From NCBI GenBank assembly GCA_021814545.1, contig JAKAID010000005.1, forward strand, positions 1 through 32,067: a stretch of 32,067 nt of DNA. Reading direction: 5' to 3'. The position numbers and the translations under genes were made by a program. This DNA is from a bacterium. Its GTDB lineage: Bacteria > Patescibacteriota > Minisyncoccia > UBA6257 > GWB1-50-10. Positions 11,984 through 14,820 of the stretch are shown in pieces (position 1 is the first letter of the stretch; every line of letters starts with the position of its first letter). The notes below the pieces were generated by a model. The model made no database searches. It saw only the letters and a program-made list of their open reading frames with translations, and was not told where the DNA came from.

Positions 11984-14479
11984 TTATTGCCGCCGCGCCA
12001 CCTGCCACACGAAGTCATTATTTGTGTACGCGACCGAGAGCGTGTCGCCGCGCGCTATCTCACGCCGTAATATTTTCTCTGCGAGCGCGCTCCGCACCTT
12101 CTCTGAAACCACTTGGCGGAGTGGCCTCGCACCAAACACGGGGCTATACCCTAACACTGCGATTCTTCGCATCGCGGTCTCATCAACGTTCAAGTCTATT
12201 CCCTGCGCCTCGCGGAGCGCGCCCACCACCTCATGCACCAGGTAGGTTGCTACCGTATAGATCTCCTCTGGGGTGAGCGTGCGGAACACGATGATATCGG
12301 AAAAACGATTGATGAGCTCGGGGCGGAAGTAATCGGTGAGCTTCTTTTTGAGCTCATTAGCGACCTCCTCGCTCTTCTTCCCCGCCTCTATCTCCGCCTT
12401 AATAAGCTCCGAGTGCGCGTTCGAGGTCGCGATGATGATAGTGTTCTGGAAATCGACGGTGCGCCCAAGGCTGTCGGTGAGCCGCCCATCATCGAACACC
12501 TGGAGGAAGAGGTTCAGAATGTCGGGGTGGGCTTTCTCGAATTCGTCGAGAAGCACAAGGCTGTAGGGGTTCTTCAACACCGCGTCAGTGAGCGTGCCCG
12601 TCTTCTCGCCATCGGGCGTGCCAATGAAACGGAAGATGCTCTGCTTGTCCTGGTATTCGGACATATCGAAACGGAGCATGAAGTCCTTCGAGCCGAACTG
12701 TACGTCAGCGATTATCTTCGCAAGCTCGGTCTTCCCGACACCCGTAGGCCCCACAAAAAGGAAGGCAGCGATCGGACCCCCTTTGCGCGCGAGGCCGCTG
12801 CGGTACTCGCGGAGCGCCTGGGACACCGAGCGGACCGCCGCCTCCTGATTCACGAGGCGTTCATGGATTATCTTCTCAAGGTTCAATAGTTTCTCCGCTT
12901 CCACTTCGCGCGCCTGCCCTATCGGAATCTTGCTCTGCGCTTCAGCGATCGCAATGATGTCGTCCGCGGTAAGCACTTTCTTCTTTGCGTCTTTTGCTGC
13001 AACAAGCGCCCGCTTCACAAGGTCCTCGGCATTCCCTGGGAGAAGAGTATCGTGGAAATAACGGTGCGCAACATACACCGCTTTCTCGAGCGCGCGGAAC
13101 GTGATGAACATCTTGAATTCCTTTTCCAGAAGGAGCGAGGCGTACACGAGGTAGCGCACGGCGTCTTCCTCGCTTATTTCCTCGATGTTGATGACCTGGA
13201 ATTGCTCAAGGAAATCGGAACGCGGCTCGATGTACTGCTTATACTCACGCGGATAGGTTTCCACGATGACCGGTATCGCATTATTCCGAATAAGGGGGAA
13301 AAGGATATCGATGGCGTTCATCGCCTTCGCGCCTCCGGTGCGGAAGAGGTCGTGCGCATTCGGAATAAAAAGCACTATATTCCCCGCGCGCACGATTTCA
13401 TCCACGATGCGCTGCAACCTCCCCGCGAGCGTCTCCGCGGCAGCGTCCGACACAAGACTGCTCACCTCAAGCGACACGAGACGCTTATCAAAAAGAACCG
13501 CAGGCACGTCATCGTTCACCATACGGTATGCAAGATGCGCAATAATGGCGTTCTTCCCCGAGCCCGCTTCGCCTACCAATATCGCATTTGGCTTCCCGGG
13601 TCGCGAAACGACCTGGAGCAAACCCTCGAACTCTTTCTCGTGTCCCACAAGAAACCCCGCCGCGCCCACCCGTGCAAGATCGGTGAGGTCGGTGGCAAAC
13701 TGGTCGAGCGTAGGCGTCGGCCGGGCAGTCCACGCGCGGTTCATGAAACGCTTCTTCACGACCTGTGCGCGGGAAACGAATCCACCAAGCGCGAGCGGGA
13801 GCCCCTTCAATCCGAAGAGGGTCCTCTTCCAACGGCCGAATATAACCGCCTCGCGAAGCCCGGCGGGAGAAAGTTCGAAAAGATCGAATATTTTTGCAAC
13901 AGCGGGGTCGCCTATCTCGGAAAGCGCCACAAAGAGGTTGCGCGAATGTATGTATTGTTCCCCCGTCGTTGCGGCGTTCTCGTACGCAATGACCGCGAGA
14001 GACTCTATCGCCTTCAAAAGTTCTTCTTTTTTTGTTTTTGGCACGCTTCCTTTCAATGCCGATTCCAGTTTTTCGTGGAATGCGCGGCGGTCGACGGAAA
14101 GCCTATCGAGAAGCTCCTTGATGTCGCCGCACTCAAGCAGCTCTTGCAACAGGAGAAGATGGAAACTCTTCCCCAGCATACGCGCCTTGCGATACGAATA
14201 ATTGATGATGCGGAAGGCATTCGGCGTGCACGCGAGCGCAACATTCTTCTTTGTGCCTTTGAGTTCCGCGATGGCGCGCTCGCCGTCGCCGCGGTGTGAG
14301 AACCTGTCGAGCAAAAAAAGTGCAAGAAGTACCGCCGCGTTGTGGAGGGCGCGGGAATCAGACACAAAAAGGAATACGGTAGCAACCGTAAGGAGCGTGT
14401 ACGCGGAATACGCAGTGAGCCTGGTGACAAATTCACCGAATGCGGAGAGGAGGAGCCTTGGTTCGCGGTAGAAGAGCAT
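11984..14479 (-). CDS. Membrane-anchored Clp-like AAA+ ATPase (two AAA domains, degenerate D1)
   Basis: N-terminal hydrophobic helices, Clp-N-like segment, D1 GEAGSGKN, D2 GPTGVGKTELAK / LLDEFEKAH / TSN / GARPLRQ. ATG at 14479 lies 6 nt after the upstream stop. Confidence 0.9.
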   Translation of the reverse strand: MLFYREPRLLLSAFGEFVTRLTAYSAYTLLTVATVFLFVSDSRALHNAAVLLALFLLDRFSHRGDGERAIAELKGTKKNVALACTPNAFRIINYSYRKARMLGKSFHLLLLQELLECGDIKELLDRLSVDRRAFHEKLESALKGSVPKTKKEELLKAIESLAVIAYENAATTGEQYIHSRNLFVALSEIGDPAVAKIFDLFELSPAGLREAVIFGRWKRTLFGLKGLPLALGGFVSRAQVVKKRFMNRAWTARPTPTLDQFATDLTDLARVGAAGFLVGHEKEFEGLLQVVSRPGKPNAILVGEAGSGKNAIIAHLAYRMVNDDVPAVLFDKRLVSLEVSSLVSDAAAETLAGRLQRIVDEIVRAGNIVLFIPNAHDLFRTGGAKAMNAIDILFPLIRNNAIPVIVETYPREYKQYIEPRSDFLEQFQVINIEEISEEDAVRYLVYASLLLEKEFKMFITFRALEKAVYVAHRYFHDTLLPGNAEDLVKRALVAAKDAKKKVLTADDIIAIAEAQSKIPIGQAREVEAEKLLNLEKIIHERLVNQEAAVRSVSQALREYRSGLARKGGPIAAFLFVGPTGVGKTELAKIIADVQFGSKDFMLRFDMSEYQDKQSIFRFIGTPDGEKTGTLTDAVLKNPYSLVLLDEFEKAHPDILNLFLQVFDDGRLTDSLGRTVDFQNTIIIATSNAHSELIKAEIEAGKKSEEVANELKKKLTDYFRPELINRFSDIIVFRTLTPEEIYTVATYLVHEVVGALREAQGIDLNVDETAMRRIAVLGYSPVFGARPLRQVVSEKVRSALAEKILRREIARGDTLSVAYTNNDFVWQVARRQ

Positions 14480-14484
14480 GGGTA

Positions 14485-14820
14485 TTATGAAACTGTTTTG
14501 AACACAAGGTAGGCGGGAAATGCGAGCCAAGCGAGATACGCGGCAAGCGCCACCGCAAACACTACTGCATATACGACGCTCGCAACGATGAGACGCGCCG
14601 AGCGGAACAAAAAGCCCATCACGCGGCCCACCACCGAGTAATCGCCATAGAGGGGCTCAAAAATATTCTGTGCGGTTATCTTCCATGCGAGCGTGCGGTC
14701 CATGGCGCGCAAGACCCCGATCATAAAATCGGAGTACATAGAAGCGCTTTTTATATACCAATGCCGCAAAAAGTCGAATATTCTATAAAAAAAGCGGCTA
14801 ATAATATACGTGAAAAACAT
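14485..14820 (-). CDS. Small membrane protein of unknown function
   Basis: 111 aa, C-terminal hydrophobic region (LIVASVVYAVVFAVALAAYLAWLAFPAYLVF). Tightly packed upstream of the Clp-like gene. Confidence 0.7.
   Translation of the reverse strand: MFFTYIISRFFYRIFDFLRHWYIKSASMYSDFMIGVLRAMDRTLAWKITAQNIFEPLYGDYSVVGRVMGFLFRSARLIVASVVYAVVFAVALAAYLAWLAFPAYLVFKTVS

Follow-up and report, generated by a model that had tools for sequence, protein, structure and literature searches.

Which mode of action is left to a Clp/Hsp100-like ATPase that is predicted to be anchored in the membrane and has lost the motifs by which its relatives grip polypeptides? The accepted explanation of how Clp/Hsp100 motors work is the pore-loop, hand-over-hand model, and the gene analyzed here, located in a patescibacterial stretch of 32,067 nucleotides (the whole of which is called the window), raises this question directly. 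A preliminary description, made from the DNA letters, had read its product either as a membrane AAA+ remodeler acting without a canonical grip or as a scaffold. We examined these readings through the homologs of the ATPase, a structural model, and the gene that accompanies it.

Gene, domain layout, and predicted membrane anchor

The features of the locus are reported in Table 1. The start of the ATPase gene was set at the ATG at position 14479 because homologs align from a sequence resembling MLFYREP; a mechanical open reading frame of 848 aa, which starts too early, was rejected as the true frame. The closest sequence relatives in the PDB are ClpC, ClpB, and ClpA, the alignment spanning both D1 and D2, with an identity to ClpC of 29-40%. 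The Pfam matches listed included the Clp D2 domain AAA_2 (PF07724, E 8e-52) and ClpB_D2-small (PF10431, E 3e-17); among the same matches, those to D1 were weak only, and neither a Clp_N nor a protease domain was found. A ClpX, ClpA, or ClpB membership according to NCBIfam was rejected, the scores for ClpB, ClpA, ClpK, and ClpG all being far below their cut-offs (472 against 1232 for ClpB).

The AlphaFold model, obtained with 66 homologs in the alignment and having a mean pLDDT of 85.7, comprises two transmembrane (TM) helices, a helical N-domain, a poorly predicted linker at about residues 238-247, and then D1 and D2. The N-terminal TM helices of the preliminary description are thus predicted also by this model; the hydropathy peak of the window protein is modest, at 1.72, against a stronger 1.88 to 2.75 in its relatives. 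The structural alignment with full-length ClpC chains covered 800+ columns with a high overall rmsd, and Foldseek matched the D1-D2 part of the model to subunits of ClpC hexamers at about 3-4 A rmsd.

As in class I of Clp/Hsp100, the ATPase has two Clp-type AAA+ domains and a C-terminal D2-small. D1 and D2 together measure 576 residues (256-831), which is about the size of ClpA, and no middle domain of the ClpB/Hsp104 type (about 120 residues) is found in D1, the two domains being too short for such an insert.

Table 1. Position of the ATPase gene, its domains and motifs, and the partner gene in the window.
Feature	Position	Strand	Description	Basis
Membrane-anchored Clp/Hsp100-like ATPase	11984..14479	-	831 aa; stop codon 11984-11986	Best PDB and NCBIfam matches ClpC, ClpB, ClpA
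Two predicted TM helices	14297..14443	-	Residues 13-39 and 43-61	AlphaFold secondary structure, hydropathy
N-domain	13814..14224	-	Residues 86-222; predicted all-helical, at the position of the Clp N-domain	AlphaFold
D1 AAA+ domain	12920..13714	-	Residues 256-520; degenerate	Alignment to Clp proteins, family motif counts
D1 Walker A	13550..13573	-	GEAGSGKN; P-loop Gly and Lys kept, Thr lost	Alignment
D1 pore loop	13421..13447	-	DAAAETLAG replacing AKYRGEFE	Alignment
D1 Walker B	13346..13372	-	LFIPNAHDL replacing LFIDE.H	Alignment
D1 sensor-1 region	13253..13267	-	IVETY	Alignment
D1 Arg-finger region	13190..13213	-	FLEQFQVI replacing ALERRFQ	Alignment
D2 AAA+ and D2-small	12011..12907	-	Residues 525-823; catalytic set intact	PF07724, PF10431, family counts
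D2 pore loop	12596..12619	-	TPDGEKTG replacing PPGYVGYEEGG; 4 residues shorter, no aromatic	Alignment
Place of the canonical [LIV]GF ClpP-docking loop	12335..12409	-	Deleted here	Comparison with ClpC controls L185-L196
Partner gene, P0002 family	14485..14820	-	111-aa membrane protein; ends 5 nt before the ATPase start	

Motif states in the family and in canonical ClpC

A pattern-limited scan of one genome per species (85,462 species) retrieved 131 relatives, the best 80 of which were taken. According to their titles, these 80 derive from Patescibacteria or from bins with no lineage in the title, except for one Spirochaetia bin and one Nanoarchaeota bin, which we take to be misbinned. The frame is open through the match in all 80 loci, although contig ends truncate two of them (L058 and L070). 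The motif losses recur in the closest relative, L002, with which the identity is 79%, and a sequencing or assembly error was therefore rejected. Adding further patescibacterial genomes to the scan relatives gave an alignment of 153 members. On these data, the family appears to be confined to Patescibacteria, the space outside the phylum being covered by the pattern-limited scan. No published description of the family was found in the open-access literature, and it may have been described elsewhere. It may be present, unnamed, among the 106 protein families, most of them unannotated, that a 2019 survey gives as enriched in CPR (PMC6744442); the main text of a transposon study on Saccharibacteria makes no mention of Clp (PMC10633639).

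The position of each motif was set by alignment to ClpA and ClpB from E. coli and to ClpC from S. aureus and B. subtilis. All the D1 changes listed in the preliminary description (Walker A, pore loop, Walker B, sensor-1, and Arg finger) are found in the translation, each at its canonical position, so that the idea of canonical motifs hidden at shifted positions was rejected. Within the 153 members, the D1 P-loop Lys is retained in 136 and is Arg in 12, and the residue that follows it is T in 40, E in 31, S in 18, and K in 18. The D position of Walker B is occupied by P in 55, D in 41, E in 19, and N in 17 members, and the E position by N in 66, D in 49, and E in 23; Walker A and B are both complete in 13/153. 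No member has an aromatic residue at the column of the KYRG pore-loop Tyr (0/153), nor the RR pair of the Arg finger (0/153). Since the P-loop Lys is kept, Walker B is mostly lost, and the Arg finger is gone, D1 can probably still bind nucleotide at the P-loop but would not hydrolyze it.

D2 had been described as retaining Walker A and B, the sensors, and NRF. Its translation contains GPTGVGKT, LLDEFEK, ATSNA, NRF, and GARP, and seven catalytic positions (K and T of Walker A, D and E of Walker B, N of sensor-1, R of the Arg finger, and R of sensor-2) are each identical in 153/153 members, which makes the idea of a scaffold instead of a motor unlikely. Mean conservation is highest in D2 (0.62), followed by D1 (0.47) and by the N-terminal parts (about 0.30), and D2 would be the sole motor ring. 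The replacement of PPGYVGYEEGG by the shorter TPDGEKTG lies at the canonical position, and the Tyr of the GYVG pore loop is kept in two of the 153 members. In the whole family, the aligned segment of this loop has anything from 1 to 14 residues, with a sequence that is just as freely variable; its PDG turn, in the first 79 aligned members, has P in 66, D in 58, and G in 63. The preliminary description had also seen no ClpP-binding [LIV]G[FL] loop, and this loop is indeed missing from the ATPase and from the membrane-type members compared, the whole segment being deleted with respect to ClpC from the same order. Because of this deletion, the ATPase should not feed ClpP.

Most genomes of the order to which the window belongs encode a second Clp protein, usually longer. 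We used 12 canonical ClpC sequences of this order as a control (L185-L196), nine of them from genomes whose membrane-type protein was also read. All 12 keep GKT, FIDE.H, RRF/RRL, [FY]RGEFE, and PPGYV/PPGYI, and their docking loop, located before the Arg finger, is [LIV]GF in 11 cases and FGF in one; they are ordinary soluble ClpC proteins, and none of the 12 has a membrane-length helix. Since ClpC keeps all the motifs in the same order and in the same genomes, the losses belong to the membrane family and not to the lineage, and a lineage-wide drift of Clp proteins was rejected.

The preliminary description had pointed to clpP as informative. ClpP is present in 57/61 genomes of the order, and this presence is not decisive for the role of the ATPase because most of the genomes also carry a separate canonical ClpC with its docking loop. 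There are genomes with a canonical ClpC and no membrane-type gene (e.g., G392, G422, and G423) and genomes with the membrane-type gene apparently lacking a canonical ClpC (G402 and G416, read at L200 and L201). In the window's genome no second Clp protein was seen, an absence that is uncertain as the assembly is 94% complete and in 16 contigs; its sole ClpP match is a fragment of 56 aa at a contig edge (G000:C5:5-163, at L001), probably cut by the assembly.

Two further observations concern Clp proteins of other loci. The canonical soluble ClpC-like proteins of L182 and L184 have SHRG, and not K[YF]RG, in the D1 loop. Moreover, one genome of the order, G396, harbors two adjacent ClpX-sized genes and two neighboring ClpP genes (G396:C3:343815-345518 and G396:C3:511385-512682), ClpX-sized matches being otherwise uncommon in the order.

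The partner gene and the probable order of the losses

The gene preceding that of the ATPase, its distribution throughout the phylum, and its fusions to the ATPase were not part of the preliminary description. The encoded protein carries the motif RHWY...PLYxDYSxxGxxLGFxFR and is modeled with a pLDDT of 96 as two long helices joined by a short link (helices at residues 2-44, 46-51, and 63-110), of which the second long helix alone is clearly hydrophobic enough to span the membrane. The window partner matched no Pfam family, the other members gave scattered weak matches only, and the model had no significant fold match in the PDB.

Of the 78 loci for which upstream DNA was available, 76 have a homolog of the partner upstream of the ATPase gene and in the same orientation, and in a larger set this arrangement recurs in 135 loci with a median distance of 1 nt. 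A count of the family throughout the phylum through the E-value of an ATPase profile was dropped, because canonical ClpC proteins (L176, L182, and L184) can score as high as the members; the partner profile, used in its place, matched at least 165 genomes in a phylum sample of 380. In about 40 of these genomes, the match is part of an 800-920 aa open frame, and the sequences read (L095-L108, L213, and L214) are Clp-like proteins whose own N-terminus consists of the partner. Among the 61 genomes of the order, 49 have both genes, 11 have neither, one (G405) has only the ATPase, and none has only the partner, the absence of the ATPase being scored from PF10431 matches and read directly in G381, G392, G422, and G423; the two genes are on different contigs in G419, and the region is cut by contig ends in G385 and G434. 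By sequence, the ATPase is near-obligately paired with, or fused to, the partner across Patescibacteria.

Apart from the partner, the neighboring genes differ from locus to locus and do not name a substrate. A gene for an MFS-type protein of about 222 aa is found directly downstream of the module in 39 loci (e.g., L044:8294-8962), and one for a glycosyltransferase-4 (WecA/MraY-like) in 28 loci, mostly of distant lineages (e.g., L072:3275-4342). As both recur in subsets only, the neighboring genes were rejected as a functional clue; a link of the module to the envelope is possible.

In the tree of D1-D2, all the members form one clade (support 100) with respect to ClpA and ClpB from E. coli and patescibacterial ClpC, and they do so also when the motif columns are left out. 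The loss of the D1 RR pair maps to one change at the base of the family, and the D1 Walker state and the D2 GYxG loop require at least five and at least three changes, respectively, these counts being soft because branch support within the clade is uneven. Of the 13 members with D1 Walker motifs, L113 lies beside the partner and the others are fused to it. Four of the fused proteins (L103, L104, L105, and L106) combine D1 Walker motifs with a long, PPG-like D2 loop, and L104 still has PPPGYPGYEEGG; these four are possible living intermediates. Because such members remain in the clade, anchoring and the partner, together with the loss of the D1 Arg finger, the D1 aromatic, and the ClpP loop, likely came first, and the D2 grip and the motifs for hydrolysis in D1 were likely lost later, more than once.

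Known systems and possible mode of action

The ATPase shares with ClpC, ClpB, and ClpA the order N-domain, D1, D2, and D2-small and the full D2 catalytic set. It differs from them in its predicted TM anchor and near-obligate membrane partner, in lacking the D1 Arg finger, the pore aromatics, and the [LIV]GF loop, and in having mostly lost the D1 Walker B; from ClpB it differs also in lacking a middle domain of that size. By the features tested here, it is not ClpC, ClpB, or ClpA. In FtsH, N-terminal TM segments are followed by a cytoplasmic AAA+ ring, a layout that the ATPase resembles, whereas its AAA domains are of the Clp type, the pore aromatic is absent, and no protease domain is among the Pfam matches listed.

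Torsins have one AAA domain. They are related to Clp/Hsp100, are membrane-associated, lack the pore-loop consensus, and work with a membrane partner, LAP1 or LULL1 (PMC4999309, PMC5425593). They have no Arg finger of their own and are activated by this partner, which has an AAA fold. The ATPase is not a Torsin because it has two AAA domains and its own D2 Arg finger (153/153), and because the membrane protein it is paired with is all-helical and lacks an AAA fold. Among known systems, Torsin is the closest precedent of a Clp relative that works without pore loops and with a membrane partner. A second likeness is that with Bcs1, a transmembrane AAA-ATPase that does not thread hand over hand (PMC10567702); however, Bcs1 belongs to a different AAA clade and has one AAA ring, which is a heptamer.

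According to the reading that we prefer, to which we assign a probability of about 0.6, the ATPase is a ClpP-independent, membrane-embedded, two-subunit Hsp100 remodeler with D2 as its single motor ring and without aromatic-loop threading. It would derive from ClpC/ClpB-type Hsp100 proteins and would be held in the membrane by the N-terminal helical hairpin; as basic residues are found on either side of this hairpin, the N-domain and the two AAA+ domains would probably lie in the cytoplasm. It would form a hexamer and work in complex with the small membrane protein of the preceding gene. Hydrolysis would be confined to the D2 ring, and D1, with nucleotide bound and not hydrolyzed, would serve for assembly or coupling. 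No protease would be fed, and polypeptides would probably not be threaded in the standard way; instead, D2 would drive ring movements that are transmitted by D1 and the N-domain and that rearrange or extract the membrane partner or other membrane proteins. That the ATPase acts on the partner itself, or on membrane proteins reached through it, is a first guess. As for the remodeler without a canonical grip of the preliminary description, the aromatic loops, the D1 set, and the ClpP loop are indeed lost family-wide, whereas its non-threading action is something that we infer.

What emerges is a large natural family with an intact D2 motor that has lost both grips together with the D1 motor and the protease dock. 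Since living intermediates survive, the role of an Hsp100 ring without threading can be asked directly. The family also provides a widespread and concrete membrane system in Patescibacteria, a phylum in which little is known of the biology of the envelope, and it offers a small membrane protein of no known family a role that can be tested. A bolder proposal is advanced tentatively, at somewhat less than even odds: a phylum-wide, two-subunit membrane machine specific to Patescibacteria, in which an Hsp100 protein gave up threading and proteolysis and acts by D2-driven ring motion on the membrane or on its proteins, as a bacterial functional counterpart of Torsin or Bcs1. If this is true, the intermediates record the conversion of a threading into a non-threading motor.

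Standard hand-over-hand threading appears unlikely in view of the lack of an aromatic grip in both rings and of a D2 loop that is freely variable. Missing aromatics do not in themselves exclude pulling, since some AAA+ rings without them are parts of threading machines and the D1 ring of Cdc48 deviates from the typical aromatic pore (PMC5511170). The ATPase might therefore still thread, as a membrane unfoldase or extractor in which D2 pulls by its non-aromatic S/TPDG loop and D1 is a passive guide. We regard this as unlikely, though deserving serious attention: the fully kept D2 catalytic set, the PDG turn conserved in the first 79 aligned members, and the long GYxG-like D2 loops of early members agree with it, whereas a loop varying freely in length and sequence family-wide does not behave as a gripping element, and aromatics are absent from both rings, a feature shared with Torsin and for which threading by Torsin was considered unlikely in the studies on it (PMC4999309, PMC5425593).

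A membrane translocase for folded cargo, in which the ring and the partner helices form a vestibule as in Bcs1, seems improbable. Bcs1 moves a folded protein by a concerted motion (PMC10567702), its general layout is similar (TM helices at the N-terminus, then an AAA+ ring), and the partner together with the TM hairpin would supply several helices per subunit; however, no candidate cargo was found among the neighboring genes, and the other clade and heptameric state of Bcs1 weaken the parallel. Very improbable, finally, is the view that the ATPase is a scaffold or a regulatory subunit, either mixing with canonical ClpC or supplying ClpP at the membrane: canonical ClpC and ClpP do occur in most genomes of the order, and the canonical and membrane-type genes are about 3-4 kb apart in L182 and L184, but the ClpP loop is deleted in the members compared, the D2 active site is invariant, unlike that of a passive scaffold, and the occurrence of the membrane-type gene is not tied to that of ClpC (G392, G422, and G423 as against G402 and G416).
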